DNA of 64,000 nucleotides from a virus, in the IMG/VR virus record IMGVR_UViG_3300044675_005584, positions 23,686 to 87,685 of that record, one strand, 5' to 3'. Within the stretch, counting starts at the first letter, position 1. Each line of letters begins with the position of its first letter. The notes beneath the pieces are model-generated. The model was not told where the DNA came from, ran no database searches, and saw only the letters and a list, made by a program, of their open reading frames with translations. Made by a program: the position numbers and the translations under genes. This document shows, one piece after another, positions 38,208 through 54,904 of the stretch.

Positions 38208-39740
38208 ATGATATTTGGATTCACAATTTTGGCCACAGCATTGTTATTGAGCTTGGTGGCAGCTTATTATAGCATCATGGGACTTACGGCCATTTTTGCT
38301 GCGGCCACCATACCTGTGATCATCATGGGTGCCAGTTTAGAACTGGGCAAAATAGTTGCCACAGTGTGGTTGCACAATAACTGGCAACGTGCCAGCTGGC
38401 TGTTTAAAACCTATCTGATCCCGGCTGTGTTCTTTTTGATGATGCTGACCAGCATGGGCATCTATGGCTTCTTGTCAAAAGCACACAGTGATCAAAGCCT
38501 GGTGTCAGGAGATGTCACTGCCAAGATTGCCATATATGATGAAAAGATCAAGATTGAACGGGAGAATATAGATGCTGATCGCAAACAACTCAAACAAATG
38601 GACGAGGCTGTGGACCAAGTTATGGCACGTTCAACTTCGGAAGAAGGGGCAAGTAGATCCAGTGCTATTCGCCGAAGCCAGCAGAAAGAACGTGCTCGCC
38701 TGCTTGCGGACATTACAACATCTCAACAAAAGATCACTGCTCTCAACCAGGAGCGAGCACCGATTGCCGCGGAAGTTAGGAAAGTTGAAGCTGAAGTTGG
38801 TCCTATAAAATACATCGCGGCCTTGTTGTATGGTGATAACCCTGATGCCAATGTGCTGGAAAAGGCTGTGCGATTTGTTATTATAATGATTGTGTTAGTG
38901 TTTGATCCGTTAGCCTTGTGCCTGATCCTGGCTGCTAACAAACAGTTTGAATGGGCACGACGTGGCACAGGCGGTTGGGTGCATGATGAAAAAACACAAG
39001 ATGATGATAAAAAAGTAGCAGAATGGTTCGACCATGCCCGAGAACGAGCAAAATTTTGGGATAAACAGCAACAAGAGCCACCACCAGGTCCAGAGCCATT
39101 TAAATCAGGACCATTTGTGAGTGGTACATTTCAACAGGCCAAATACGAACAAGATGACGGACCATTGACTGACAATCAAGTTGAACAGATCCAAGCGACA
39201 GCTACGGAAGAATTGCCCAAGGGTGAGTTGCTTGCCAAAGAGGAATTGTTTCCAGAACCCACTGTTGCAGAAACTTTACCTGAGCCGGCATTGCCCCAGC
39301 CCACAGTTGATCTAGTGGTCAATGCCGGTAGTGACTATGTAGAAGTCAACGGCAAACGGGTACATCACAAGTCATTTGACATACACAGCCAAAATGCAGG
39401 TCATGCTGTTGAGCGACATGCCGCTGCCCGCCTCCAAGCCGACAACGAGCTTGCCGGCACAGCTTCAACTACAGGATTTGGCATAGTCTTTCCAGATGTA
39501 CCCAACAAAGGCGACACTTTTCTTAGAGTGGATCGGTTACCTACCATGTTATACAAATACAACGGACGAGACTGGATTGAAATAGACAAAGAAATCAGTA
39601 CAAGTTATGTGTATGAAGATTCCTATATTGATCATCTCATCACTCGTATCAGCAGTGGCGAGTATGATCCTGATCTTTTGAGTGACATGGAACGTGAAGC
39701 AATCGCTCAACGATTACGAACAAATCCACCAACGGTGTAA
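38208..39740 (+). CDS. Conserved phage membrane protein with coiled coil
   Basis: The ATG at 38208 gives a 510-aa protein. Four transmembrane helices are expected: two near the N-terminus (MIFGFTILATALLLSLVAAY, AIFAAATIPVIIMGASLELG), one after LIPAVFFLMMLTSMGIYGF, and one at FVIIMIVLVFDPLALCLIL. A long charged coiled coil lies between helices three and four, and the C-terminal half is Pro/Glu-rich and soluble. I recognise the membrane part as a common unnamed T4-like phage protein. The longer frame upstream overlaps the previous gene and is unlikely. Confidence 0.75.
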   Translation: MIFGFTILATALLLSLVAAYYSIMGLTAIFAAATIPVIIMGASLELGKIVATVWLHNNWQRASWLFKTYLIPAVFFLMMLTSMGIYGFLSKAHSDQSLVSGDVTAKIAIYDEKIKIERENIDADRKQLKQMDEAVDQVMARSTSEEGASRSSAIRRSQQKERARLLADITTSQQKITALNQERAPIAAEVRKVEAEVGPIKYIAALLYGDNPDANVLEKAVRFVIIMIVLVFDPLALCLILAANKQFEWARRGTGGWVHDEKTQDDDKKVAEWFDHARERAKFWDKQQQEPPPGPEPFKSGPFVSGTFQQAKYEQDDGPLTDNQVEQIQATATEELPKGELLAKEELFPEPTVAETLPEPALPQPTVDLVVNAGSDYVEVNGKRVHHKSFDIHSQNAGHAVERHAAARLQADNELAGTASTTGFGIVFPDVPNKGDTFLRVDRLPTMLYKYNGRDWIEIDKEISTSYVYEDSYIDHLITRISSGEYDPDLLSDMEREAIAQRLRTNPPTV

Positions 39741-39741
39741 C

Positions 39742-40941
39742 ATGTCAGAAATCAATACCTGTAATTTTTGTACCAAAACAAAAGATCAAGTATTAAAATT
39801 AATTGTAGGTGATGATGCTGCCATTTGTAATGAATGCGTAAATCTCTGTAGCACCTTGTTGGTTGATACCAAAAAGTCACGACGCAACAAAGGCAGTCAG
39901 CTAAAAGTCCCAGATCCGCGAGCAGTATGCGACTATCTTGATCAGCATGTGGTTGGACAACGTGATGCCAAACAAGTGATAAGTGTGGCTATAGTGAATC
40001 ATTACAAACGTATCAGCAATCCTGATCCTGATATTGAAATACAAAAAGCCAATATCTTGATGCTGGGGCCAACCGGCACTGGCAAGACCTTGATGGCTCG
40101 CACTGTGGCAAGATACTTGAATGTGCCTTTTGTGATAGCAGATGCTACCACATTAACAGAAGCTGGTTATGTAGGTGATGATGTCGAAAGTCTTATTTCT
40201 AGATTGTACATCGCAGCCAATGGCGATGTTGAACAGTGTGAACGTGGTATTGTATTTCTAGATGAAATTGATAAAATTTCTAGAAAAAGCGAAAGCAGTA
40301 CAGTAAGCCGTGATGTGTCTGGCGAAGGAGTACAACAGGCATTATTAAAATTAATAGAAGGAACCAAATGCAGGATATCGCCGCAAGGGTCAAGACGCAC
40401 ACCCAGCACTGACTCAGTGGAAATTGATACTGCTAATATCCTATTCATAGGCGGTGGTGCATTTGTGGGCCTGGATCAGATTGTAAAAACTCGTGTGCAA
40501 GGAACTGCTATAGGATTTGGTGCCATGCTTACTGACACCAATGCAGACGCAGTACCGGCCACTCCAGACGATCTGGTACGGTACGGACTGATACCAGAAT
40601 TTGTAGGTAGATTTAGTAGCACTGTGAATTTACAAGGACTAAGCAAAGCTCAGTTGATCGACATTTTGACTTCTATTAAAAATAACTTTATAGCACAATA
40701 CAAATGGTTGTTTGAACAGGATGGTGTTGTGCTGGATTTTGACTCAGATAGCCTAGAGCTAATTGCTGATCGTACCTTACGGTCCAGGACCGGTGCTAGA
40801 GGATTACACACTGAACTGGAACGTGTGTTATTACCACACATGTTTGATCTACCACGTTACTCCAAACAAAACATAATCCGCGTAGTTATCAACAAAGACC
40901 AGGTAAATACTCCTATGACACTGGCACAGGAAAACGAATGA
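39742..40941 (+). CDS. clpX: ATP-dependent unfoldase ClpX
   Basis: This 399-aa ClpX is full length. The N-terminal zinc domain uses C7, C10, C29 and C32. The AAA+ core has Walker A GPTGTGKT (109-116) and Walker B DEID (174-177). The IGF loop that docks on ClpP is kept (257-259), so it should work with a ClpP. The pore RKH loop is changed to a GSRRT-like sequence, which may shift substrate choice. It is co-translated with bS21 and followed by hsp20 and clpS; a ClpP-like protease lies at 63219. Confidence 0.95.
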
Positions 40942-41159
40942 AGTTGTACGGACGATCAGTCTTGGTCAAAGACGGCAATGTAGAAAAAGCACTTCGTAAG
41001 TTCAAGAAAAAAATAGCTGAAAGCGGACTGCTTATTGAACTCCGTGCGCGAGAAACTTACGAAAAACCCACCACCGCTCGTAAAAGACGAAAATCTGCCG
41101 CTAAAAATCGTTGGCGTAAACAGGTAGCCAGCCAAAAGTTGCCAAAAAAACAGTTTTAA
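40938..41159 (+). CDS. rpsU: Ribosomal protein bS21
   Basis: This 73-aa basic protein matches bacterial bS21: [18 protein letters not shown], then [20 protein letters not shown]. bS21 sits near the anti-Shine-Dalgarno end of 16S rRNA and affects initiation. Phage bS21 copies have been reported in large phages and are thought to favour phage mRNAs. It overlaps the clpX stop (ATGA). Confidence 0.93.
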
Positions 41160-41195
41160 TCTCCAAATAATCTTTTCCTATAACGAATTTTGCTG

Positions 41196-41239
41196 TATAA
41201 TAAATACTAATACGAATGCCGCAACATGGGTTCGTATTA
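41196..41239 (+). promoter_or_regulatory. hsp20 promoter with 5'-terminal hairpin
   Basis: TATAAT (41196-41201), overlapping TAAATA (41201-41206), is followed at the expected transcription start by a 9-bp stem: TAATACGAA (41208-41216) with TTCGTATTA (41231-41239). The AAAGGAG of hsp20 lies after the hairpin. The -35 region is weak. Confidence 0.6.
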
Positions 41240-41267
41240 TGTCACTTGCTTAACAAAGGAGAAAACA

Positions 41268-41708
41268 ATGACTAAATTCACAGCACTAGACCTCACCCCG
41301 TTTTATCGCAACAGCATAGGCGTAGATCGTTTATTCGATAGACTTATCGACCAAATGGATCATGCCAGCGGGACCAACTATCCACCATACAATATTATCA
41401 AGACTGGAGACAACTCATTTGAAGTTCAAATAGCTGTGGCCGGTTTTAGCGAAGGCGAAATTGATATCACTGTAAAAGATGGAAACTTGGTGGTCACAGG
41501 AAACAAAGATCCTGAAATAGAAACAGACACCACTGCTTATCTTTATCGAGGCATCAGTGCTAGACGTTTCGTACGCACTTTTAGTTTAGCAGACTATGTT
41601 GAAGTAGCCACTGCTGTGAGTCGCAATGGTATCTTGAGTATCACTTTAGAAAGAAAAATTCCTGAGGAACTCAAGCCAAAGACTATTGCGATCACCTACG
41701 CAAACTAG
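41268..41708 (+). CDS. Small heat-shock protein, Hsp20/IbpA family
   Basis: This 146-aa protein closely follows the IbpA pattern: an N-terminal LDLTPFYRNSIGVDRLFDRL, the alpha-crystallin domain with VQIAVAGFSEGEIDITV and NLVVTG, and GILSITLERKIPEELKPK. It holds unfolded proteins for later refolding. AAAGGAG sits 5 nt before the ATG at 41268. A 5'-terminal hairpin in its leader resembles the arrangement before clpS. Confidence 0.93.
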   Translation: MTKFTALDLTPFYRNSIGVDRLFDRLIDQMDHASGTNYPPYNIIKTGDNSFEVQIAVAGFSEGEIDITVKDGNLVVTGNKDPEIETDTTAYLYRGISARRFVRTFSLADYVEVATAVSRNGILSITLERKIPEELKPKTIAITYAN

Positions 41709-41750
41709 TATAATAGTGTAAATACAGTAGAGGGCTTGACTCTCTACTGT
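41709..41750 (+). promoter_or_regulatory. clpS promoter with 5'-terminal hairpin
   Basis: TATAAT (41709-41714) and TAAATA (41719-41724) are followed by a 9-bp stem: ACAGTAGAG (41724-41732) with CTCTACTGT (41742-41750). AAAGGA then precedes the clpS ATG. The design repeats that of hsp20. Confidence 0.55.
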
Positions 41751-41778
41751 TACACAAAACCATGTTAAAGGAAATACA

Positions 41779-42087
41779 ATGTCACAAGCTGATACAGTTA
41801 CAAAAATACAAATCAATCCTGATATCAAAGAACCTCCTATGTTCAAGGTCATCTATGTCAATGACAATCAAACCAGTATGGAATTTGTGATTGAGACCTT
41901 GATTACATTTTTTGGATACACATCAGAAACTGCTGTACAAATCACTGACGATATACACACGGCAGGCAGTGCTGTGGTTGCTGTGTTGCCACACGAAATT
42001 GCCGAACAAAAAGGCATTGAAGTTACCATTCACGCACGAAATCAAAACTATCCTTTACAAATTAAGCTCGAGCCCGAAAACGTCTAA
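41779..42087 (+). CDS. clpS: Clp protease adaptor ClpS
   Basis: This 102-aa protein has the ClpS core PPMFKVIYVNDNQTSMEFVI, with the NDN segment and Met of the N-degron pocket, and a DIHTAGSAVV segment with the conserved His. ClpS delivers N-end-rule substrates to ClpAP, so its partner would be host ClpA rather than phage ClpX. The 3' end overlaps the convergent phosphoesterase gene by 4 nt. Confidence 0.92.
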   Translation: MSQADTVTKIQINPDIKEPPMFKVIYVNDNQTSMEFVIETLITFFGYTSETAVQITDDIHTAGSAVVAVLPHEIAEQKGIEVTIHARNQNYPLQIKLEPENV

Positions 42088-42896: not shown

Positions 42897-43259
42897 ATGA
42901 ACATAATATTTGGAAGCCACTTAATTGATGAAATTGCCACCAAGTACACTGTGCTAGAGCTTGACACTATCCGACTGATGCCAGACGACGTCGAAAGCAC
43001 AGCTTACTGTGTGGTAGAAAAAATACCAATGTTTGAACTGGATCAGTTGCATGTTCTCAAACAGTTACACGATGACATGATAAACTCTTACAAAAATCGC
43101 AAATGGGGAGCCTGCGCTGACGCAGCACAGACACTGAAGGGTGCATGGGGTACTGAACTTGATAGTTTTTATGATATCATGCTGTCCCGTGTAAGACAAT
43201 ATCTGGTGCAAGAGCCTGACTCTAGCTGGTCTCCAGTGATAGAAAAGAACCAGTCTTAA
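42897..43259 (+). CDS. Conserved phage protein of unknown function
   Basis: This 120-aa soluble protein contains SHLIDEIATKYTVLELDTIRL and WGACADAAQTLKGAWGTELDSFYDIM. It looks conserved among T4-like phages but has no known domain. AAAGGAA precedes the ATG. It lies directly upstream of the curli-like operon but lacks a signal peptide and so is not likely part of secretion; it is not a CsgE. Confidence 0.65.
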   Translation: MNIIFGSHLIDEIATKYTVLELDTIRLMPDDVESTAYCVVEKIPMFELDQLHVLKQLHDDMINSYKNRKWGACADAAQTLKGAWGTELDSFYDIMLSRVRQYLVQEPDSSWSPVIEKNQS

Positions 43260-43273
43260 ACTGCTGTGTAATG

Positions 43274-43312
43274 CTCTAACCTAGTCCTGTTAAATAATAA
43301 TAGGAGTTAGAG
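43274..43312 (+). promoter_or_regulatory. RBS-hiding hairpin with late-type box in its loop (csgF leader)
   Basis: CTCTAAC (43274-43280) pairs with GTTAGAG (43306-43312), and TCCT (43285-43288) can pair with AGGA (43302-43305), covering the Shine-Dalgarno TAGGAG of csgF. The loop holds TAAATA (43291-43296). RNA started from this box (about 43302) would lack the left arm and leave the site open, as in the known T4 lysozyme-type control. Confidence 0.6.
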
Positions 43313-43313
43313 T

Positions 43314-43769
43314 ATGAATAAAAAATATAAAAATATACTCTCAATCGGTGTCCTGACCTGGGTACCCTTCGTATTGGCTTCGCCGATTGCAGATTACACA
43401 TTCAAAAGCCCCAGTTTTAACGGCTCGGGCTACAGCAGCCATACTCTCACGATCGAAAATCAAGAAACCACTCGAAGACAACAAGTGGCCAAGGATATCG
43501 AAGCAAAACTACAGGCAACAGCCGCCGCTGCAAACAATACAAATATTGCCAAGTTTATGAACAACTTGGAAAGTCGTATCTACGCACAGATAAGCCAGAA
43601 TCTGGCCACTGCCATGTTTGCCACAGGTGGTAGCACCAGCGGCTCATTGAACTTTGAAGGCAACACGATATTTTATTCCAAGGATGCTGGCAATGTATAT
43701 CTCACAGTGACTGACAATGTGGGCAATCAAACACGGGTCACTATTCCCCTGGGACAGTTCCAATTCTAA
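43314..43769 (+). CDS. csgF: Curli assembly factor CsgF
   Basis: This 151-aa protein has a signal peptide (to about residue 22, VPFVLAS) and the CsgF pattern: YTFKSPSFNGSG right after cleavage (the part of E. coli CsgF that plugs into the CsgG pore), a helix FMNNLESRIYAQISQNLA, and a C-terminal strand pair VYLTVTDNVGNQTRVTIPLG. CsgF couples curlin export to surface nucleation. It is the first gene of a five-gene operon and is followed 1 nt later by csgG. Confidence 0.88.
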   Translation: MNKKYKNILSIGVLTWVPFVLASPIADYTFKSPSFNGSGYSSHTLTIENQETTRRQQVAKDIEAKLQATAAAANNTNIAKFMNNLESRIYAQISQNLATAMFATGGSTSGSLNFEGNTIFYSKDAGNVYLTVTDNVGNQTRVTIPLGQFQF

Positions 43770-43770
43770 C

Positions 43771-44889
43771 ATGAAAACATTGCTAATTTTATTTGTTGTC
43801 TCCTTGTTGACAGCCTGTGCAGTGGGTCAAAAGGCCGGCATGGAATATCGTCCTGAACCAGTACCAAACAAGATGCAGAAAGAATTTGACGCTATACCAG
43901 CTCCAGATGGTCGCAAGCTCAGTGTGGCTGTTTATAGTTTTGGAGACAAGACTGGACAGCGTAAACCCACGGCTGGTATTGCCAGCCTGAGCATGGCAGT
44001 CACGCAAGGCGCCGAAGTGTTCCTAATCAAGGCCCTACAGGATGTTGGTCATGGACAATGGTTTGATGTGGTTGAGCGTATCAATGTAGATGCCCTAACC
44101 AAAGAGCGTTTAATTATTAGACAGATGCGAGAAGCCTATGAAGGGGCCAATGCCAAACCGCTCATGCCCATGCAGTTTGCCGGCATCATAATGGAAGGTG
44201 GCATAATTGGCTATGACTCTGGCACAGAATCAGGTGGAGCCGCACACAGGTTCCTGGGCATAGGGTCACAGACACAATACAGCAAAGACACTGTGACAGT
44301 GAGTTTACGGGCCATAAGCGTGAATACTGGAAAAGTATTGGCCGCAGTACACGTGACCAAAATAGTTTACAGCACAGCAGACAGCGTGGCTGTGCTAAAA
44401 TTCTTGGCCAATGGCGTGCAGGCATTCGAAGCCGAAGCTGGGCTGACTATAAACGAACCCGGAACCATGGCAGTCAAGGCCACAATCGAAGCCGCAGTAG
44501 TAGAACTGATCAAGGAAGGTGAGCGCAAAGGTATATGGGATTATCGCAAGCCAGAAGCAACAAAAGCACCACCGCCGGCGACAGCACCTGCTCCAGTTGT
44601 GACAGCACCACCGGTAGTGACAACACCAGAGTTCAGTTGGGGCAACGAACCAAATGGCCCTGAGTTTGTGTGGAAAGAACCCGCCAAACAAAAGATGTAT
44701 TTTTTAGCCGACACCCGGGTGTATAAAAAGAAATCCAATTTAAAAGGACCTGTGTATGGATCATTTGTTGTGGCCAAAGCCAATACACCAGTTGAAATTG
44801 TTGAAACAGAATTCCCAGATGTGGTAACCGTAACAACCGACTCAGGCATCCGGGGATTTGTTAAAAGGGAAAGATTAAAAACAAAATGA
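43771..44889 (+). CDS. csgG: Curli secretion channel lipoprotein CsgG, with C-terminal extension
   Basis: This 372-aa protein has a lipobox LTAC (C16) and the whole CsgG core: APDGRKLSVAVYSFGDKTGQ, ITxxR-like RLIIRQMRE, IIMEGGIIGYDSGTESGGAAHRFLG-like channel strand, and GIWDYR. In E. coli, nine copies form the outer-membrane curli pore. The constriction loop differs (no Tyr or Phe equivalent after TGQRKP), so the pore may be wider. About 95 extra C-terminal residues have a Pro-rich linker and an SH3-like part (YGSFVVAKANTPVEIVE). The next gene overlaps by 4 nt. Confidence 0.92.
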   Translation: MKTLLILFVVSLLTACAVGQKAGMEYRPEPVPNKMQKEFDAIPAPDGRKLSVAVYSFGDKTGQRKPTAGIASLSMAVTQGAEVFLIKALQDVGHGQWFDVVERINVDALTKERLIIRQMREAYEGANAKPLMPMQFAGIIMEGGIIGYDSGTESGGAAHRFLGIGSQTQYSKDTVTVSLRAISVNTGKVLAAVHVTKIVYSTADSVAVLKFLANGVQAFEAEAGLTINEPGTMAVKATIEAAVVELIKEGERKGIWDYRKPEATKAPPPATAPAPVVTAPPVVTTPEFSWGNEPNGPEFVWKEPAKQKMYFLADTRVYKKKSNLKGPVYGSFVVAKANTPVEIVETEFPDVVTVTTDSGIRGFVKRERLKTK

Positions 44890-45680
44890 AAAACCACTTA
44901 TTCAAAATAACAATGGCCATACTTGCCGTGTTATCCATCGCAACGCAGGCCGCTGATAACAGTATCTATATTGATCAGGCCGGTGATAACGCTGTTATCT
45001 CAGTTACACAAGACGGAGCAGGCAACGTGGTGCGTGGCATACAAGGCGTGGGTACTGGTAACACTACAGCAGCACGGATACAAGGTGATGGCAATCAGGT
45101 CACTGTGAGCCAGATTGGTAGTGGCAATACCTTGAACCTGGGAGTGAATACTACCACAGCCGCCGGTGTGGCCAATGGCAATCGTTTCACGTATAGTGTG
45201 ACAGGTAACACAGCCACTGCCACGATCAACAGCAATCAAGGCGGTGCTGGAGTCAGTGCCAGCAACATAGTATCCGTAACACAGAGCGGAAATACTGCCA
45301 ATACCAACATCAATGTGCTGGGCACAACCAACACCATTACAGCAACCACGGCAGGTGGCGCAAACAACAGCGTGGTATCCACGGTAAGCGGTACAAGCAA
45401 TACAGAAACCATATCCATGACTGGTGGTGCTGGAAACACTTCTACCATAACGCAGACTGGCACATTGGGCAAAGCCACCATAACCAGTGTGGGTGCTACC
45501 AATACCTATACTGTTTCACAAAGCGGTGGCGGCACAGCTGGACACACCACCGTGATTGATGCCACCGGATCGGGCAATACTGCCAGTGTGACACAGGCTG
45601 GCACATCGGGTGACAGCGTGGCAAATCTCAAAAGTGTAGGATCTGGTAACACCTTTACAGTGAACTCAAATACCAAGTAA
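44886..45680 (+). CDS. Curlin-repeat amyloid subunit (CsgA/CsgB-like)
   Basis: This 264-aa protein has a signal peptide ending ATQAADNS. Curlin-type repeats follow: NSIYIDQAGDNAVISVTQDG, NQVTVSQIGSGN, and many shorter Asn/Gly/Thr/Gln-rich strand-turn units with SGNT or GAGNT turns up to the C-terminus. Nearly all charge is absent after residue 80, as expected for an amyloid fibre. It should be exported by the neighbouring CsgG. It is coupled to csgG by ATGA. Confidence 0.85.
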   Translation: MKNHLFKITMAILAVLSIATQAADNSIYIDQAGDNAVISVTQDGAGNVVRGIQGVGTGNTTAARIQGDGNQVTVSQIGSGNTLNLGVNTTTAAGVANGNRFTYSVTGNTATATINSNQGGAGVSASNIVSVTQSGNTANTNINVLGTTNTITATTAGGANNSVVSTVSGTSNTETISMTGGAGNTSTITQTGTLGKATITSVGATNTYTVSQSGGGTAGHTTVIDATGSGNTASVTQAGTSGDSVANLKSVGSGNTFTVNSNTK

Positions 45681-45683
45681 AAA

Positions 45684-46820
45684 ATGTCAACAATCTATTA
45701 TAAAAGGAGACCTAAATGGACGGACGTATTATGCGCACTCTTGCTGAGCTTATCGCAGAACACCATCGCCGAAATTGGCAAAATAACAGAACAGATCAAT
45801 ACTCAGCCTTTGATACAACGGTCAGCCACGACCTTGACGGGGACATCGGGTATGGCAGTAGAGATGTTGGACGCGATCCGGACCACTCGGGGCAAGGTGG
45901 GGATAACTTTCCAGGATAACACTCGAGTACAGGTAAACGAAAACAGTCGTTTGGTCATAGACGACTTTGTTTACAATCCCAGATCTGGCACTGGTAAATT
46001 GGCACTCAACATGGCTTCGGGCACAGTGAGATATGCATCAGGACAGATTGCCAAAAACGATCCACAACGGGTGGCTATTAATACTCCTACTGCCACTATT
46101 GCAGTGCGTGGTACAGACTTTAGTGCCACAGTAGATGAATTGGGTGGTAGCACGATCATATTGTTGCCCAGTTGTCCTGCAGGATTCCGTGATGTGGCCC
46201 GTGATTGTAAAACTGGCGCAATTGAAGTGATCACCGATGCTGGCAAGGTAGTGTTGGATCAGGCTTTCCAGGCTACTCGAGTCGACACTCGCGGAATCAT
46301 GCCACTCAAACCGGTCATACTCAAAATAGGAGAAGACGCTATCAACAATATGCTGATTGTGAGTCCTCCACGTCAGCTAGATCGAAATGCCGACAAGACA
46401 CAGCTTAGAACTGAAGCAAAGGGCGCATTGGATGTGGACTTTTTGAAAGAAACAGGTTTGATAAATGCGCTTGAAGCCCAGGAGCAAGAACTATTCAAGG
46501 ACACCATAAGTCGTAACTTTTTAGATCAAAATTTCTTGGCAAACATCTTGGACATAATTGATGCGCAAATGGCCGCACAATTGGATCTATTAAAATCGAC
46601 CAAGTCTGGTCTATTACCAGATTACAACGCTGTGTCTGGTATTGTGGCCGCAGTTGACGACAACACAGTGACACTCAGCAGAGACAATGGTAGCGACATA
46701 CAAAGTGTCACAACACCCCTACGACAGGCCAGTACCATTTACCAAACCCAAGGACCCTTAGAGTTCAAGAACCGTGTGAATACCGGTGGCACAACAATTA
46801 TCACTCTAATACAAAAATGA
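45684..46820 (+). CDS. Secreted FecR-domain protein of the curli-like operon
   Basis: This 378-aa protein has a basic N-terminus and hydrophobic core (VLCALLLSLSQ, cut after about NTIA). A FecR domain follows: MLDAIRTTRGKVGITFQDNT, ENSRLVIDDFVY, then INTPTATIAVRGTDFSA. The C-terminal half is helical and may anchor or cross-link fibres. FecR-like proteins often pair with curlin or adhesin genes in proteobacteria. The start has no ribosome site, whereas AAAAGGAG stands 24 nt inside, before an out-of-frame ATG (45716). A small indel or recoding should be considered. Confidence 0.75.
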   Translation: MSTIYYKRRPKWTDVLCALLLSLSQNTIAEIGKITEQINTQPLIQRSATTLTGTSGMAVEMLDAIRTTRGKVGITFQDNTRVQVNENSRLVIDDFVYNPRSGTGKLALNMASGTVRYASGQIAKNDPQRVAINTPTATIAVRGTDFSATVDELGGSTIILLPSCPAGFRDVARDCKTGAIEVITDAGKVVLDQAFQATRVDTRGIMPLKPVILKIGEDAINNMLIVSPPRQLDRNADKTQLRTEAKGALDVDFLKETGLINALEAQEQELFKDTISRNFLDQNFLANILDIIDAQMAAQLDLLKSTKSGLLPDYNAVSGIVAAVDDNTVTLSRDNGSDIQSVTTPLRQASTIYQTQGPLEFKNRVNTGGTTIITLIQK

Positions 46821-47383
46821 AATACCTGTTATTTTTCTTCCTGTGTTCATCGGCTTGGGCCGCGGATAACTCGATAGTGATAGATCAGATCGGTGACAAT
46901 AATACTGTGGTGATCACGCAAGATGGCACAGCACACTCAGTGAATGTGACCATGGGCACTGTGTCGTCAGCGGACAACAACTCAATTGCAATCACGCAAC
47001 AAGGTACTGGAGCAAAAACAGTCGCAGTAGAACTACGAGCAGGAATCAATAATGGTGTGATAATCACACAAGATGGAGGAGGAGCACATGTCAGCAACAT
47101 ACAAAATCTTAATGGTAATGCTAACAACATTACTATTGGCCAAAGCGGTAATGCTAATCACAACTTTACTATTGTAGGCGGAGCAGGCACAGTCAACGGC
47201 GGTAACACTATCACAGCCACACAGTCTGGTGCTGCAGACAAAGCATTCACATTAAACTTGAATTCAACATCAGGTGCTGGAGTAACAGTTCAACAGACCA
47301 ATCCTGGGCAAGCCAATACAGGAAACATGAGCATCTCATGTGCGGCTGGAACTTGTGGAAATTATTCTTACATACGTCCTTGA
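46817..47383 (+). CDS. Second curlin-repeat protein (CsgB-like)
   Basis: This 188-aa protein has a short signal peptide (FFFLCSSAWA) and clear curlin repeats: NSIVIDQIGDNNTVVITQDG, NNSIAITQQGTG, NNGVIITQDGGG, NNITIGQSGNAN. It differs from the first subunit by a C-terminal Cys pair (SISCAAGTCGNY). It may act as the nucleator (CsgB role) or as a minor subunit. It overlaps the FecR gene by ATGA and ends the operon. Confidence 0.85.
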   Translation: MKYLLFFFLCSSAWAADNSIVIDQIGDNNTVVITQDGTAHSVNVTMGTVSSADNNSIAITQQGTGAKTVAVELRAGINNGVIITQDGGGAHVSNIQNLNGNANNITIGQSGNANHNFTIVGGAGTVNGGNTITATQSGAADKAFTLNLNSTSGAGVTVQQTNPGQANTGNMSISCAAGTCGNYSYIRP

Positions 47384-47404: not shown

Positions 47405-47827
47405 TCACCAAGCCGAGGGATTGGGCACAGCACAAGGACCGTCTACAGGAATAGACCCATAGTCAGCCGGGCTGATGATTTCCAAGTATTCCATGTCTGG
47501 CGAATAGTCAAACAGGTAATGTACTATACCTGGCTTTTGATGCACACAGTCACCTGTGTTGACCAAGGTCACTTGGTCTTCATACATAAACTTGGCCCAG
47601 CCTTTAAGCATATAAACGATTTGGAAACTGGCAGTATGGTAGTGCCAGCCTGTGCCCTCTACAGGGGCTTTTTTGGCACGGGTAATATGTGCCAAAACAT
47701 TTCCGTGGGTAGCGTCTTTAACACCAAGATCACGGTACTCAAAAAACTCCCTAAGTCCATCGGGTAAGAACTTAGTATCGTTGGGCGTGTTATGGCTGAA
47801 CTTGGTACCGCTATCGTAAGTTGTCAT
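47405..47827 (-). CDS. Cupin-domain protein
   Basis: The ATG at 47827, preceded by GGAG, gives a 140-aa protein with a single cupin barrel: GWHYHTASFQIVYMLKGWAKF (motif 1, two His) and GDCVHQKPGIVHYLF (motif 2, His). Small cupins bind a metal and can be sugar isomerases, dioxygenases or sensors; no more can be said. A perfect late-type TATAAATA lies upstream on the same strand. It is a lone minus-strand gene between the curli operon and the Tim44-like gene. Confidence 0.78.
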   Translation of the reverse strand: MTTYDSGTKFSHNTPNDTKFLPDGLREFFEYRDLGVKDATHGNVLAHITRAKKAPVEGTGWHYHTASFQIVYMLKGWAKFMYEDQVTLVNTGDCVHQKPGIVHYLFDYSPDMEYLEIISPADYGSIPVDGPCAVPNPSAW

Positions 47828-47847
47828 AATAATCTCCATTGAGTTTG

Positions 47848-47855
47848 TATTTATA
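47848..47855 (-). promoter_or_regulatory. T4-type late promoter (minus strand), perfect TATAAATA
   Basis: A perfect TATAAATA on the minus strand lies 21 nt before the cupin ATG at 47827, leaving a short leader that contains GGAG. Confidence 0.6.
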
Positions 47856-47878
47856 TGCCTTGTACGCCACTGTAATGG

Positions 47879-47884
47879 TAAATA
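47879..47884 (+). promoter_or_regulatory. TAAATA late-type box
   Basis: TAAATA lies 37 nt before the ATG at 47922, back to back with the minus-strand late box, so this 94-nt gap is a divergent late control region. Confidence 0.45.
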
Positions 47885-47921
47885 CTGAGTGGTATACACT
47901 GTCTTGAGAAAGGACCGATCT

Positions 47922-48374
47922 ATGAAACGTCAATTGTTTGTCAGTATTGCAATATCAGTGCTGTTAGTTGGAGTTCCTGTTGAAGCCAAACGAGTAGGCA
48001 GTGGTAACAGCATGGGTAAACAGTCTAGCACAGTGACCAAAAATCAAAGCAGTTTACCTGCCAAACCCGCTGCAGCACCAGTTAGTGCGGCAAAACCTGT
48101 CACACCAGCACCCGCAACACCTGTTACACCACCATCGGCATTTGGTGGTATGGGTGGTATCTTGGGAGGCATTGCAGCCGGTATCGGTCTAAGTTATCTG
48201 TTTTCTCATATGGGCTTAGATGGTCTGGGAGACGGCATTGCGTCGATGGTAAGTGGTTTGTTACTGTTTGGCATTCTAGCCCTGGTAGGATTTTGGCTTT
48301 ACAAAAAATTTGCTACCAAAGACAAAAACAACACAGATATGCTACCAGCGTCCAAGTCGCCAACGGTCATATAG
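47922..48374 (+). CDS. Membrane protein resembling truncated betaproteobacterial Tim44-like protein
   Basis: The ATG at 47922 follows AAAGGA and gives a 150-aa protein. The signal-like N-terminus ends EAKRVGSGNSMGKQ, a sequence typical of Tim44-like inner-membrane proteins in Burkholderiales. A Pro/Ala linker and two membrane segments follow (GGILGGIAAGIGLSYLFSHM and MVSGLLLFGILALVGFWLYKK), but the Tim44 domain that would come next is missing. It was probably taken from a host and cut short. The function is unknown; a membrane role is clear. Confidence 0.65.
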   Translation: MKRQLFVSIAISVLLVGVPVEAKRVGSGNSMGKQSSTVTKNQSSLPAKPAAAPVSAAKPVTPAPATPVTPPSAFGGMGGILGGIAAGIGLSYLFSHMGLDGLGDGIASMVSGLLLFGILALVGFWLYKKFATKDKNNTDMLPASKSPTVI

Positions 48375-48803: not shown

Positions 48804-49637
48804 ATGCGATTAATAGAATTTATTACTGAATCTGTAACAGGTCAGGATGTATTGAATTATATCCAACGAACACATCACGAACCACTTACTGCTCAACTGA
48901 GCCGGGCAGTATTACAACAACCCAAGTGGGAATTACGCTCAGTGCCTTTACATGATCTACACATTCCTGATCAGGGCTATGACGATGATCCTGAGTATGA
49001 ACCTGCGGCAGATCCTTATGATCGTGTGCAAGATATCAATCCTGAGCATGCTGGAGAAGTAAGCATACACAACGTAGACCGCAAACCTATTGTGATTGAT
49101 CGTGAAGGCTTTATAATAGATGGCAATCACCGTGCCTGGGCCGCTGCGGAGTTACTGGGCCGTGACACTATACAGGCTTGGGTTCCTGTTGAACAAGAAC
49201 TTACCGAAATAGGCAACACACGCATAGACTACCAGCCTAATCGTAAACGTAAAAACAGCCTGTTCCACACCACAGTAGACCGTCATTGGGTAGATGTGTT
49301 TTTTGATCGTAGTTTTACTGGCACATTACAGATAACATTCACAGTGGATCAAAACTACAAATCCAGCATACAACTTCCCCAAGGCACAGTATTCCGAATC
49401 TTCAGCACAGTGCTACAAATAATCAAAGAACAACTTCCTGAATACATGCGTAAGGCTCGTCCGCCCAAGGTCAGTTTCACTGCTGAAGGCGGCAGCAGAG
49501 TTAGCTTGTATCGCAGAATGTTTGTTCCGGTGGTCACGGATATACTGGGACCACGATGGCGATTGACCGAGTATCCAGGCAATCAGCACTTGTTCATATG
49601 GGAGCCAGTAAAGAAAAATGAAAAAAATACTGCTTAG
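48804..49637 (+). CDS. ParB/sulfiredoxin-like domain protein with capsid-targeting-like N-terminus
   Basis: This 277-aa protein begins MRLIEFITES, very close to the T4 capsid-targeting sequence, with an I-T-E cleavage-like site. Residues 94-120 contain PIVIDREGFIIDGNHRAW, the G-x-DGNHR motif (DGNHR at 106-110) of ParB/Srx-like nucleotide-binding domains. The C-terminal half is beta-rich and unassigned. The protein may be packed in the head and injected with DNA to act as a nuclease or NTP-dependent effector; this is inference. It overlaps the cyclase gene by 20 nt. Confidence 0.65.
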   Translation: MRLIEFITESVTGQDVLNYIQRTHHEPLTAQLSRAVLQQPKWELRSVPLHDLHIPDQGYDDDPEYEPAADPYDRVQDINPEHAGEVSIHNVDRKPIVIDREGFIIDGNHRAWAAAELLGRDTIQAWVPVEQELTEIGNTRIDYQPNRKRKNSLFHTTVDRHWVDVFFDRSFTGTLQITFTVDQNYKSSIQLPQGTVFRIFSTVLQIIKEQLPEYMRKARPPKVSFTAEGGSRVSLYRRMFVPVVTDILGPRWRLTEYPGNQHLFIWEPVKKNEKNTA

Positions 49638-51669
49638 CCCCTGGACAGCATTAATCACATTGGCTATTATATTGGCCATACGAATTGTTGATCCTGTGTT
49701 TGTTGAAAGTGTTCGATTGCGTTACTTTGATACACTTGTCACCAGCAAGGCACCTACTGAAAATAATATATACACGGTCAACATAGATGAAGCCGCCCTG
49801 GACCGGTACGGGCAATGGCCCCTGCCCAGAGATCGTTATGCCACGCTGATTCAAGATTTATACCAACGTGGTGCTGGATTGGTGGTGTTTAATGTGCTCA
49901 TGGCTGAGCCAGATCGCATGGGCAAGGATGCTCAATTAGCTCAAGTGATTGATCAGTATGCTGTGGTGTTACCAAATGTGCCTGCCGACAAAACTAAAAA
50001 CAATCCACAACCTCCAGGGTCAGCGGTGCTGGCTCCAGAGTATCTAGATCGTATTACGACCTATCCTGGCATGATTGCTAACATTGCTATGTTAGAAGAA
50101 CGGGCTGATGGCATAGGCACAGTGAATACACTACCCGAGATTGATGGAGTCAACAGACGTATACCTTTGATTGTTGCTGTCAATGGACAATTATATCCCA
50201 GCTTGAGTATAGAAACTCTGCGTGTGTTAGCACAAGATACCACGTTCCAGGTCAAGCTAAATGAACTTGGTGTGGAAAAGATGCGTATTCCCAAGTTTGG
50301 TCCTGTAACCACAGACAACCTGGGCCGCATCTGGATAGACTGGAGCCAGCGCAACAAGACTGTGAGTGCTGTAGATTTGCCTGCGGACTTTGGCGGTGCT
50401 GTGGTCATAGTAGGAGTGACTGCTGCAGGCATAGGTAATCCAGTGCCAACTCCGGCAGGTGCTGTATGGCCTAGTGATGTACAGGCCAAGGTAGTAGCTA
50501 CCATGATCAATGATGTGGTCATACAAAGACCTAGTTGGGCGGACGGAGCAGAATTGATTACACTGGCCTTGGCCAGTATCCTATTATTATTTTTAACAAG
50601 GTGGACCTATGTTGGACTTACGACCGTTGGTGTATTGGCTGTTGGTAGTGCCATCCTTCCTTACTATCTGTATCTTGATTTTTTATTCTTATTCGACGCT
50701 ACTGTCGTTACCACTGGCATCATACTGGTCTCTTTGCACGCCTACGGTGTCAAGTTTGTCAGCGAGTTCCTACAAAAACAACAGATAAAGAGACAGTTTG
50801 GTAGCTATGTCAATCCTACCATTGTAGAAAGACTACAGCAACATCCTGAACTGATCCGCCTGGGTGGAGAAAAGCGTGAGTTGTCAGTGGTCATGACCGA
50901 CATGCGTAACTTCACAGCCTTGGGCGAAAGCTATGGCGAAGCCGGAGTAGAAGATTTTACTCAAGTCATGAACAGTTACATGACAGCCCTGAGTGTGCCT
51001 ATTCTTAAAAACGATGGTACCTTGATCAAGTTTATTGGTGATGCCAGTCTCCATATACACGGTGCTCCCATTGACGATCCTGATCATGCTTGTCGTGCTG
51101 TACAAACTGCCTTGGAAATGATCGAAGCAGTAAAAGTATTCAATCAAGACTTAGCTGTACTAGGCAAGCCACCAGTTGGCATGGGTGCTGGAGTTAATAC
51201 CGGTGAAATAATCGTGGGCAACATCGGTGCCAAGACCAAGTTTGGTTATGATGTACTAGGTGATGCAGTCAGTATCGCAGCACGATTGGAAGGACAGACC
51301 AAAGGCTATGGCGTGTTGGTCATTATAGGTCCCAATACCAACGAACTGGTCAGGCACAAATACATCACGCTAAAACTGGATTATATCGCAGTCAAAGGCA
51401 AAAAAGAAGGCTTACACATTTACACACCACTGGGGCAGCGTGATCAATTGACCATATCAAATGCTGATGTACAGATGCATGCGGCCATGCAACAACTGTA
51501 TCGCCAACAGAAATTTGATAATGCCGCAAGATTCTGCCGGGATCTAAAAGGACGATTTGGTGGAGTGATGGATCACTACTATGACATCTGGATTGAGCGT
51601 TGTGAGCAGATGAAACAGGTCAAATTGCCCGCCGACTGGGACGGCATGTATCATGCTACCAGCAAGTGA
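49618..51669 (+). CDS. CHASE2-domain class III adenylate cyclase
   Basis: This 683-aa membrane receptor has an N-terminal helix, a periplasmic CHASE2 domain (about 30-310), three membrane helices (about 315-385) and a class III cyclase domain. Metal Asp residues are D428 (TDMRNFT) and D475 (FIGDAS). The adenine-selecting Lys and Asp are K471 and D545 (YDVLG), and the catalytic Arg is R556. The usual Asn of the VNxAxR motif is Ser (S552), which may lower or alter activity. A phage cyclase that senses an external signal is rare. It overlaps the ParB-like gene. Confidence 0.9.
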   Translation: MKKILLSPWTALITLAIILAIRIVDPVFVESVRLRYFDTLVTSKAPTENNIYTVNIDEAALDRYGQWPLPRDRYATLIQDLYQRGAGLVVFNVLMAEPDRMGKDAQLAQVIDQYAVVLPNVPADKTKNNPQPPGSAVLAPEYLDRITTYPGMIANIAMLEERADGIGTVNTLPEIDGVNRRIPLIVAVNGQLYPSLSIETLRVLAQDTTFQVKLNELGVEKMRIPKFGPVTTDNLGRIWIDWSQRNKTVSAVDLPADFGGAVVIVGVTAAGIGNPVPTPAGAVWPSDVQAKVVATMINDVVIQRPSWADGAELITLALASILLLFLTRWTYVGLTTVGVLAVGSAILPYYLYLDFLFLFDATVVTTGIILVSLHAYGVKFVSEFLQKQQIKRQFGSYVNPTIVERLQQHPELIRLGGEKRELSVVMTDMRNFTALGESYGEAGVEDFTQVMNSYMTALSVPILKNDGTLIKFIGDASLHIHGAPIDDPDHACRAVQTALEMIEAVKVFNQDLAVLGKPPVGMGAGVNTGEIIVGNIGAKTKFGYDVLGDAVSIAARLEGQTKGYGVLVIIGPNTNELVRHKYITLKLDYIAVKGKKEGLHIYTPLGQRDQLTISNADVQMHAAMQQLYRQQKFDNAARFCRDLKGRFGGVMDHYYDIWIERCEQMKQVKLPADWDGMYHATSK

Positions 51670-51827: not shown

Positions 51828-52136
51828 TCACTTCTTGCCACTTGATGGCGGTTCGTTTACGGTGATGTTTATTTCTTGTTCAGCAACCACACGCTCGTGT
51901 TCAATGGTTTTACCACGCAAATGTAGCACTGTGTTTACTTTTTGATTCAATCTTATGAGATCGTTGTCCAGCATACGGACACGATCGATCAAGGCAATCA
52001 ACACTATGTTGGCATCGTTGATAACCGGCTTTACTTCTCGAGTGGCCCAGAACCATACGTATTTTATAATATAACCAAGTCCAACTGCCATAACAATTGG
52101 AAAGCCATATTTGTTTACCAGTTCAACTACATCCAT
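51828..52136 (-). CDS. Small membrane protein with coiled coil (paralogue A)
   Basis: This 102-aa protein has one N-terminal transmembrane helix (GFPIVMAVGLGYIIKYVWFW) and a coiled coil (IALIDRVRMLDNDLIRLNQKV). It is clearly related to the 93-aa protein at 52763: both share GFPI in the helix, ALxDRVxxM, and a VxxxLxLR stretch. The HNH gene lies between them. It could be a holin or spanin-like accessory; no lysin was seen nearby. Confidence 0.65.
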   Translation of the reverse strand: MDVVELVNKYGFPIVMAVGLGYIIKYVWFWATREVKPVINDANIVLIALIDRVRMLDNDLIRLNQKVNTVLHLRGKTIEHERVVAEQEINITVNEPPSSGKK

Positions 52137-52726
52137 TATTTTATTCCTTTACAATTATCAAAATGGTATCTATTCATATTATGACCTTGCTTTCCTTTTA
52201 GGCCACAATGGGGACATTTTACAATTGGTCTATTTGCCCAAGTGACAGATATTTTAGCTTTTACTTCTTTAGTATTTAATGATTTTATTACTGCTGCTAA
52301 ATGCTCTTCGGATTTTTTACGACCTTTAAGAGAAGAAGCATAAGTGTTGCCTATTAAATCTTTTCTAGCTTTACCCCGGTTAGCATCGCCAATCTTTTTT
52401 TTTGTTTCTTCTGATCTCGATCTTCCGGCTAATACAGATGCATTGGTATTTCCTATAGCCCAGGGCGCAGACCTTCCTTTGAGAGCTTTAGCAATATTTT
52501 GTTTATGTTTTTCAGTTTTAGGAGAACGTAGTATTTCGGTTATTATCTCTTCTCCTGATATAATTTTTGCCAATCCTAACCAAGCTCGTTTGTCTTGAAC
52601 TCTACCGTATTGTTCATACAGGACGCGATGTGCTTCTGCATGTTCTTCTATACTAAGTTCCACTAAGTTAGAAGAATCATCTGTGCCACCTATGTGTTTT
52701 GGAATAATATGATGTTTATGTTTCAT
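52136..52726 (-). CDS. HNH homing endonuclease with NUMOD3 repeats and zinc finger
   Basis: The product (196 aa from the ATG at 52726) has an HNH core (HKHHIIPKHIGGTDDSSNLVEL, then IEEHAEAHRVLYE), NUMOD3-like repeats (SEETKKKIGDANRGK, SEEHLAAVIKSL) and a C-terminal CPHCGLKG zinc finger. The chosen ATG lies 5 nt after a minus-strand TAAATA box; an in-frame ATG at 52741 is the alternative. It sits between two paralogous membrane-protein genes, which suggests insertion into a duplicated locus. Confidence 0.85.
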   Translation of the reverse strand: MKHKHHIIPKHIGGTDDSSNLVELSIEEHAEAHRVLYEQYGRVQDKRAWLGLAKIISGEEIITEILRSPKTEKHKQNIAKALKGRSAPWAIGNTNASVLAGRSRSEETKKKIGDANRGKARKDLIGNTYASSLKGRKKSEEHLAAVIKSLNTKEVKAKISVTWANRPIVKCPHCGLKGKQGHNMNRYHFDNCKGIK

Positions 52727-52762
52727 ATTATTATTTATCATATATGTCTGGAAATGGCCTTA

Positions 52763-53044
52763 TCAATCACGTCTGGCATCTGATTTACCGTCAGCCCTGG
52801 CGATGCGTTCAACATCTGGCCTGAGTCCCAATGCGTTTGACACGATGGTATCTATACGCACCACATCGTGGTTCATGGTCTTGACTCGGTTATCCAGTGC
52901 TGTAATAATACCAGCCATACCTTTTATACTACTGAGTACACCGGCCAATAACAATTTGATTGTTAGATACACAAAGTATCCACCGGCTAGTGCGGTTGCT
53001 ATTGGAAATCCTAAATCTCCAATGATTTTAAATACATCGCTCAT
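52763..53044 (-). CDS. Small membrane protein with coiled coil (paralogue B)
   Basis: This 93-aa protein has one or two N-terminal membrane segments (GFPIATALAGGYFVYLTIKLLLAGV) and a coiled coil ending in ALGLRPDVERIARADGKSDARRD, which I recognise as a frequent T4-like phage protein. GGAG precedes the ATG. It is the paralogue of the protein at 51828. A role in lysis or membrane modification is possible. Confidence 0.7.
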   Translation of the reverse strand: MSDVFKIIGDLGFPIATALAGGYFVYLTIKLLLAGVLSSIKGMAGIITALDNRVKTMNHDVVRIDTIVSNALGLRPDVERIARADGKSDARRD

Positions 53045-54397: not shown

Positions 54398-54904
54398 ATG
54401 ATCACACACTATAAAATTCCAGTTTTCTGGGATCTTGAATATCAAGATCTTGACTATGTCAACGAATCATTCAACGATGTTGTGTTGCTTACCAAATGGA
54501 CAGCACTTGGATATCCCAATCGATTCACCGGAGACATGTGCGATATGCGTCATCGGCAACCGGTGTGGAACACACAATTCGTTGAATATTTTACAGCCCG
54601 GGGTTGGAAAGATATTGGCACCAGTTACTATCGCATGAACACTGGCACAGTATTGCCCACACATGGTGACTTGTATAAGAGATATGTTGAAATATTTGAT
54701 CTACACGGACAAGAAAATCGCATACACCGTGCTATTGTGTTTTTACAAGACTGGCAACCTGGACACTATGCCGAATATGAAGGTAAGCCATTTGTCGACT
54801 GGTCGGCTGGTGATGTAGTAGAATGGTGTTATGACACTGAACACATGGCAGCCAATCTAGGACTGGATCCTAGATACACATTACAGATAACAGGATGGCA
54901 ATGA
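54398..54904 (+). CDS. 2OG-Fe(II) oxygenase
   Basis: This 168-aa protein has the proximal H89-x-D91 (LPTHGDLY), the distal H149 (DTEHMAANLG) and R159 (RYTLQITG) of 2-oxoglutarate/Fe(II) oxygenases, with AIVFLQDWQPGHYAEYEG between them. T4-like phages often encode this short type; substrates are unknown. AAGG precedes the ATG. It overlaps the amidinotransferase gene by 4 nt, so the two may act in one pathway. Confidence 0.8.
   Translation: MITHYKIPVFWDLEYQDLDYVNESFNDVVLLTKWTALGYPNRFTGDMCDMRHRQPVWNTQFVEYFTARGWKDIGTSYYRMNTGTVLPTHGDLYKRYVEIFDLHGQENRIHRAIVFLQDWQPGHYAEYEGKPFVDWSAGDVVEWCYDTEHMAANLGLDPRYTLQITGWQ

Follow-up and report, generated by a model that had tools for sequence, protein, structure and literature searches.

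The question raised by this locus is whether a curli-like operon on a viral contig belongs to a phage and what its products would do there. The window is the whole stretch of DNA that was analysed, 64,000 nucleotides taken from the 87.7-kb record IMGVR_UViG_3300044675_005584. The features of the locus are as follows.

42897-43259, plus strand: p120, a protein of 120 aa encoded upstream of csgF that corresponds to the end of a cyclase catalytic domain and its C-terminal tail
43314-43769, plus strand: csgF (Pfam PF10614, 6e-12), with a signal peptide and the pore-plug motif F-x-x-P-x-F-x-G
43771-44889, plus strand: csgG (Pfam PF03783, 2e-43), predicted outer-membrane lipoprotein pore of 372 aa
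44886-45680, plus strand: curlin-repeat protein 1 (PF07012, 1.4e-5), 264 aa, candidate secreted fibre subunit
45684-46820, plus strand: FecR-domain protein (PF04773, 1.2e-12), 378 aa, with a signal peptide
46817-47383, plus strand: curlin-repeat protein 2 (PF07012, 6.7e-7), 188 aa
47405-49637: insert between curlin 2 and the cyclase, with a cupin gene on the minus strand (47405-47899) and ORFs of 161, 119, and 277 aa on the plus strand
49618-51669, plus strand: CHASE2-domain class III nucleotide cyclase (PF05226, 4.5e-43; PF00211, 1e-17)

The five genes from csgF to curlin 2 are consecutive on the plus strand (43314-47383), and the intergenic distances along them are +1, -4, +3, and -4 nt. These coordinates agree with the first-pass annotation, which had described a tight five-gene operon with gaps or overlaps of 1-4 nt. 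The N-terminal export signal that it had placed on each of the five proteins was also seen by inspection, together with a lipobox (LTAC) in CsgG. All five proteins matched their Pfam families (CsgF, CsgG, Curlin_rpt twice, and FecR) above the curated cut-offs. Two parts of the module had been missed, namely the CHASE2-adenylate cyclase and the cyclase-tail gene p120. The insert of about 2.2 kb splits the cyclase from the rest of the genes and is absent from this position in the cultured phages Melnitz and HTVC008M; it lies outside the conserved module. No tRNA and no Rfam match (riboswitches included) was found within the window, unlike in Melnitz, and promoter-like matches in the window were no more numerous than expected by chance.

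The record carries a phage backbone that consists of tail sheath, tube, terminase, UvsX, RNR, DnaB, and ligase genes. The contig was taken as phage DNA because sheath, terminase, UvsX, and RNR genes are present. A phage was considered PA5oct-like when its large terminase and sheath were closest to the PA5oct group and its genome exceeded 200 kb. The terminase and sheath of the window are 53% and 38% identical to that group. Relatives with 58-91% terminase identity are found on contigs of 266-357 kb, and the record itself is an 87.7-kb fragment. The contig probably represents part of a PA5oct-like jumbo myophage genome. An origin as host DNA that was misassembled onto the phage, or passively carried by it, would be in line with the presence of the module in Hyphomonas and Caulobacteraceae. 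This origin, which the first-pass annotation had named among the cases that would overturn its reading, was rejected and is extremely improbable, since phage structural genes lie on the same contig, the flanks of the locus are syntenic with a 337-kb contig, cultured phages carry the module, and phage CsgG proteins group together.

Solved CsgG structures (3x2r and 6l7a) match the CsgG of the window at 4e-43, and by these matches the protein is a CsgG pore of curli (type VIII) secretion. The lipoprotein probably starts at MKTLLILFVVSLLTAC, downstream of the start called by the ORF finder (43717). The C-terminus consists of a proline-rich linker and an extension of about 60 aa that is absent in Melnitz and HTVC008M. 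SH3_3 or SH3_4 exceeded the Pfam cut-off at the position of this extension in three related loci (L010, L028, and L167). The extension of the window gave no Pfam match, so an SH3 domain there is putative, from alignment with these relatives only. The CsgF of the window aligns weakly with the E. coli CsgF of 6l7a (E 0.2). Residues F30, P33, and G37 of the N-terminal pore-plug motif are invariant in 22 phage CsgF proteins. By profile and motif, the protein is the CsgF coupling factor, including the N-terminal segment predicted to enter the pore. The absence of CsgE and CsgC noted at first pass extends beyond the window: in the full record (87.7 kb) and in 13 records of related phages, neither exceeded the cut-off, and the E. 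coli control was positive. Alphaproteobacterial curli modules also lack both proteins (PMC9599517). CsgE and CsgC were therefore not treated as defining, because they are helpful but not essential in E. coli and are absent from those modules.

Curlin 1 matches the NCBIfam CsgB model at 4e-9, which is below the cut-off of that model. The curlin family profile matches solved CsgA fibrils (8c50 at 3e-22 and 8enq at 2e-6). The spacing of G/N residues in the curlins peaks at 11 and 23-25 residues. Among the repeat motifs searched as regular expressions, the strong motif is enriched in both curlins and the others are enriched in one or the other alone. A beta-solenoid fold, which the first-pass annotation had named as a check, is supported only in part. 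The AlphaFold2 model of curlin 1 is all-beta and repetitive (pLDDT 81, pTM 0.79), but Foldseek against the PDB returned no match at E <= 0.001 for this model, and CsgA itself was matched only at E of about 2.5. The curlin assignment was therefore based on the sequence profiles that match solved CsgA fibrils. On these profiles, both proteins are secreted curlin-repeat subunits.

The FecR protein has a FecR domain alone at Pfam E <= 1, with no anti-sigma domain. Its AlphaFold2 model has an N-terminal helix (residues 12-26), a beta domain from about residue 30, and an ordered C-terminal domain of six strands (315-378) that is separate from the FecR domain. Q377, which adjoins the C-terminal end, is invariant in 85 sequences. 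No match in the PDB was found by sequence. Foldseek matched the model of the FecR domain to the PupR signalling domain (1.3e-4) and to the cell-surface anchoring domain of an adhesin, 5ix9 (rmsd 1.1). It has been suggested that such modules import macromolecules through CsgG for nutrient or signal uptake, with FecR as an iron regulator (PMC7029224, PMC9599517), and the PupR-like domain is in line with that suggestion. We consider it improbable. The FecR protein shares the FecR-domain fold with FecR/PupR transmembrane signal transducers; those have a cytoplasmic anti-sigma part and a transmembrane helix, whereas this protein has a signal peptide and an extra C-terminal beta domain. By Pfam and model, it lacks the cytoplasmic N-terminal anti-sigma domain and the single transmembrane helix that, together with an ECF sigma partner, define anti-sigma transducers. 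Neither an ECF sigma factor nor a TonB receptor was found among the scanned neighbouring proteins, and uptake would leave the curlins unexplained. Because the protein has a signal peptide and lacks a cytoplasmic anti-sigma part, it is more likely to be a partner of the fibre or the pore than to act as an iron or transcription regulator. Its link to the fibre is suggested by the structural models. The C-terminal tail was also considered as a curlin repeat. That candidate was rejected: the tail profile had no match in 176 curlins, and a few shuffled curlins scored better than the real ones. Since the profile test gave no match, a visual and structural resemblance alone remains.

The cyclase of the window has CHASE2 and cyclase domains, both metal-binding Asp motifs, and the transition-state Arg. 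The transition-state Asn is replaced by Ser in this protein and in 21 other viral copies; it is kept in 49 viral and 3/3 bacterial copies scored. This replacement may weaken or abolish the activity of the window cyclase. The p120 profile matched the cyclase of the window (hmmsearch 1e-9) and that of a related locus, L046 (1.6e-14), with an hhalign probability of 98. By these comparisons, p120 is a free-standing copy of the tail of the module's own cyclase. It lies on the upstream side of csgF in 24 fetched loci, and was not found upstream of csgF in Melnitz or HTVC008M or in the alphaproteobacterial loci L058, L054, and L055.

The distribution of the module was counted over 47 non-redundant viral loci. 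csgF, csgG, the first curlin, and fecR are each present in all 47; the second curlin is present in 41, and in 45 the cyclase lies no more than 9.5 kb from csgG. The dN/dS values range from 0.03 to 0.35 across all six shared genes, both curlins included. Judged from these counts and ratios, the six genes are kept together and are under purifying selection in many phages. The order csgF-csgG-curlin-fecR-curlin-cyclase is identical in Methylophilales phage Melnitz (MZ577097) and Pelagibacter phage HTVC008M (NC_020484), where the cyclase closes the module. Both belong to Kyanoviridae, have genomes of about 141-147 kb, and lack p120. Their CsgG proteins, which have a short C-terminus, are 43% identical to that of the window and their FecR proteins 39-42%, whereas their terminases are just 35% identical. 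The module is present in what is probably a jumbo-phage lineage and has passed between unrelated phages as a whole. It also occurs as a unit outside phages, as it is present among bacterial genes on alphaproteobacterial contigs (Caulobacteraceae MAGs L054 and L055, and Hyphomonas sp. TMED17 L058). These have the same gene set in nearly the same order, with both curlins ahead of fecR in L054 and L055, and their identities to the window are 46-49% (CsgG), 34-38% (FecR), and 37% (cyclase). The E. coli csgBAC/csgDEFG system shares CsgG, CsgF, and curlin-repeat subunits with the window. The window differs from it in the absence of CsgE and CsgC, the addition of FecR and the cyclase, and its longer and less regular subunits.

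In the first-pass annotation, the locus was described as a curli-like operon of a phage that itself encodes the pore, the coupling factor, and the fibre subunits. That description is upheld by the profile matches, the phage backbone, the shared order in cultured phages, and the purifying selection. Its implied novelty is not, as Wittmers et al. described the module in full in 2022, with its curlins, FecR, and cyclase, and proposed superinfection defence (PMC9599517). In the marine SAR11 phages of that work (HTVC023P-type podophages and pelagimyophages), the module has the same CsgF, CsgG, curlin, FecR, second curlin, and adenylate cyclase order and lacks CsgE, CsgC, and CsgD; cell coating or superinfection exclusion was suggested as its role (PMC9599517). 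The gene upstream is called a histidine kinase there (PMC9599517), whereas the window probably belongs to a jumbo-phage lineage, has the cyclase-tail protein upstream, carries the CsgG extension, and has about 2.2 kb of other genes before the cyclase. Near-complete gene sets of this kind for amyloid fibres are thus already known from ocean phages; the probable jumbo-phage lineage and the extra parts are new here.

For Melnitz, CsgG and CsgF have been proposed as a pinholin- or secretin-like lysis pore that times virion release, with fibre genes absent or irrelevant (PMC9004378). In the AlphaFold model published for Melnitz CsgG, the barrel is narrowed, and no clumping was seen (PMC9004378), and the absence of CsgE would suit a lysis pore. 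However, the premise of missing csgA/csgB fails, as two genes of the Melnitz operon exceed the Curlin_rpt cut-off. Curlins are found in 47/47 loci under purifying selection, and the pore-plug motif of CsgF is invariant. An outer-membrane CsgG would also leave the inner-membrane potential intact, unlike a pinholin. We regard a lysis pore as improbable.

The explanation we favour, and consider probable, is a phage type VIII (curli) secretion module whose exported curlins form amyloid on the infected cell, with the FecR partner at the pore and rival phages excluded. During infection, the host Sec system would export the module proteins. CsgG-CsgF would secrete both curlins, and amyloid would polymerise on the cell surface. 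FecR would act in the periplasm or at the surface, where it would hold the fibre to the pore or nucleate it there; this role is more likely than one in transcription regulation. The CHASE2 domain of the cyclase would face the periplasm and may sense assembly, and p120 may compete with or complete the cyclase tail. Amyloid coating of infected cells is plausible, and was proposed earlier for 'sibling capture' (PMC7029224) and superinfection defence (PMC9599517).

Some observations stand against this explanation. The module lacks CsgE, a protein that enhances secretion in E. coli, and no visible clumping followed Melnitz infection in one isolate study (PMC9004378). Further points are the curlin model without a significant Foldseek match, the FecR tail without a curlin profile match, and the Asn-to-Ser replacement in the cyclase.

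As for the benefit, exclusion of rival phages by an altered cell surface would be the likeliest, closely followed by adhesion between cells (sibling capture). That the amyloid mainly serves adhesion to sibling cells, particles, or released virions is a possibility to which we give less credence. Curli are adhesive in bacteria, and bacterial versions of the module are found in Caulobacteraceae and Hyphomonas, groups known for surface attachment. The lack of clumping with Melnitz (PMC9004378) speaks against adhesion, and sequence alone cannot tell it from exclusion. Rather unlikely is an elaborate form of amyloid coating, a mobile cassette swapped between jumbo and T4-like phages for superinfection exclusion or adhesion. 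There, the coat would be sensed and anchored, FecR would act as plug or anchor at a peptidoglycan-tethered CsgG, the cyclase would read assembly, and p120 would tune the signal.

Curli modules are frequent among phages from water, and the two published readings of them, a fibre maker and a lysis pore, conflict. The findings in this work remove the premise of the lysis pore, since Melnitz itself encodes curlins, and these genes are conserved and under selection. The module crosses distantly related phage lineages, jumbo phages included, and FecR and p120 are singled out as the parts to follow up. If the fibre reading is true, these viruses would alter their bacterial hosts in surface and stickiness.

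The first-pass annotation had claimed a tight phage curli-like operon with its own pore, coupling factor, amyloid subunits, and FecR partner. The operon is confirmed by the profile search, where each of the five products exceeded its own Pfam cut-off, by matches to solved structures, and by export signals. The CsgG core matches the solved E. coli CsgG (4e-43), and the family profile of the first curlin matches the solved CsgA fibrils 8c50 (3e-22) and 8enq (2e-6). An export signal was found by inspection on each product, as was a lipobox on CsgG. The junctions between the five genes are +1, -4, +3, and -4 nt. The model of the first curlin is all-beta with repeating strands but has no significant match among PDB structures.

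Genes of the module and its neighbourhood in the window
39682-42087, row of genes shortly before the module: ClpX (with zinc finger), Hsp20 chaperone, and ClpS adaptor
42897-43259, + strand, p120, a free-standing copy of the cyclase end (final portion of the catalytic domain plus helical tail), immediately upstream of csgF
43314-47383, + strand, csgF, csgG, curlin-repeat gene, FecR-domain gene, and second curlin-repeat gene, in that order
47889-48374, secreted or membrane protein
49618-51669, CHASE2 nucleotide cyclase, set apart from the second curlin by unrelated genes spanning about 2.2 kb
51828-52136, - strand, 102-aa product, no Pfam match
52136-52741, weakly HNH-like ORF between the two small genes
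52763-53044, - strand, 93-aa product, no Pfam match
54895-55812, weak arginine deiminase-like match (PF02274 0.0016, below cut-off; phrog_25854)

The module is bigger than first reported, with the cyclase belonging to it too. Both the Methylophilales phage Melnitz and the Pelagibacter phage HTVC008M have a CHASE2 nucleotide cyclase next after the same five genes. Conservation was counted among 47 viral loci, non-redundant and with sufficient flanking sequence. All 47 carry csgF, csgG, a curlin, and fecR; for csgG and fecR this is partly due to selection, since the loci were retrieved via one or the other. The second curlin is present in 41/47 and the cyclase in 45/47, three of these on the opposite strand.

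The DNA is that of a phage and not host contamination. The IMG/VR virus record has 87,685 bases in full, of which the window is bases 23686-87685. The same record encodes a 1220-aa tail sheath, a tail tube protein, a large terminase, a virion structural protein, and UvsX upstream, and ribonucleotide reductase subunits, DnaB helicase, and DNA ligase within the window. The nearest relatives of the sheath are the PA5oct group and Sinorhizobium phage Phosso. The terminase is 53% identical to that of the PA5oct group (286-kb Pseudomonas phages), 58-91% identical to those of module-bearing IMG/VR contigs of 266-357 kb, and merely 35% identical to those of Melnitz and HTVC008M. By these comparisons, the window most likely represents part of a jumbo myophage genome.

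Comparison with two other contigs shows that the module travels as a unit. The 141-kb contig L003 has csgF, csgG, and fecR 73-78% identical and curlins and cyclase 52-63% identical to those of the window, with next to no other neighbourhood matches. The jumbo relative L167 shares 91% identity in the first half of the terminase and has collinear flanks of mostly 46-82% identity, whereas its module genes are just 34-54% identical. The CsgG tree sets phage proteins apart from bacterial ones with a support of 82, which is not strong, and places the window inside a clade of 24, well supported, whose members come from contigs with differing terminases. In Hyphomonas sp. TMED17 and in two Caulobacteraceae MAGs, contigs hold a module of near-identical order amid bacterial genes, and these modules resemble that of the window roughly as closely as the Melnitz module does. 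Module fragments on small contigs of a 'Pirellulales' MAG (L053) and a 'Ca. Pelagibacter' MAG (L062) fall inside the phage CsgG group; these contigs probably derive from phages and ended up in bacterial genomes through binning.

The window cyclase has both metal Asp motifs. The transition-state Asn is replaced by Ser in this and 21 other viral copies, which makes cyclase activity uncertain. The Asn and Ser kinds of catalytic domain do not simply track the CHASE2 part, which suggests domain swapping among phage cyclase copies. The p120 profile matches the window's own cyclase (1e-9) and the cyclase of locus L046 (1.6e-14), and profile-profile comparison gave 98% probability. The p120 gene lies ahead of csgF in 24 fetched loci. 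It is absent upstream of csgF in Melnitz and HTVC008M, where the upstream genes encode small transmembrane or coiled-coil proteins. No description of this free cyclase-tail gene was found in the published accounts consulted here.

The ClpX, Hsp20, and ClpS genes are a phage-encoded proteolysis and chaperone set, and the row also lies ahead of the module in L167 and locus L024. The 102-aa and 93-aa genes are possibly mobile companions of the module; in L167 they lie between p120 and csgF, in L024 after the second curlin, and in locus L170 after fecR. L167 and L170 also keep the arginine deiminase-like gene next to the module. The product of 47889-48374 has neither a Pfam nor a phage match. It resembles betaproteobacterial Tim44-like proteins in their N-terminal half and could be host-derived, a hint to the host.

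By Foldseek, the predicted FecR domain is similar to the signalling domain of PupR (1.3e-4) and to the 'cell surface anchoring domain' of 5ix9 (62 columns, 1.1 A, E 0.008, probability 1.0), a region that anchors a large Marinomonas adhesin. Unlike FecR transducers, the protein has neither an anti-sigma domain nor a transmembrane helix to follow it, and no sigma factor was found among the neighbouring proteins scanned. A separate six-stranded C-terminal domain (residues 315-378) is confidently predicted, and the Gln adjoining its end is invariant across 85 sequences. Its curlin-like appearance by eye was not supported by the profile test. We infer that the FecR protein partners either the fibre or the pore.

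The finding as first given is already known in kind. csgF and csgG with unassigned neighbours have been reported, with sibling capture proposed (Zaragoza-Solas 2020, PMC7029224). CsgF, CsgG, two curlins, FecR, and cyclase have been reported in SAR11 podo- and myophages, together with an origin in alphaproteobacteria, exchange across phage families, and defence against superinfection as a possible role (Wittmers 2022, PMC9599517). The modules on bacterial contigs agree with that origin. Melnitz has been said to be without csgA and csgB; no clumping was seen with it, and a lysis role was proposed (Buchholz 2022, PMC9004378). The reported absence of fibre genes does not hold, as two genes of the Melnitz operon match Curlin_rpt above cut-off. 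A literature search of limited coverage on jumbo phages and curli gave no description of such a module in jumbo phages.

The CsgG of the window includes a Pro-rich linker as well as about 60 additional residues. This extension has no Pfam match of its own, and a bacterial SH3 domain above cut-off was found at its position in L167 and two other related loci (L010 and L028). If SH3-like, the extension could tether the pore to peptidoglycan. In the CsgF N-terminal motif F-x-x-P-x-F-x-G, which aligns weakly with E. coli CsgF of the CsgG-CsgF structure entry, F, P, and G are invariant in 22 phage proteins, including those of Melnitz and HTVC008M. This counts against phage CsgF having lost the ability to work with CsgG. 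Purifying selection acts on all six module genes, the two curlins among them (dN/dS about 0.03-0.35 from eleven locus pairs, wherever computable, with some dS values saturated), so a pore-only function would explain the curlins poorly. The phage curli module is real and, as a candidate fibre system, probably functional.
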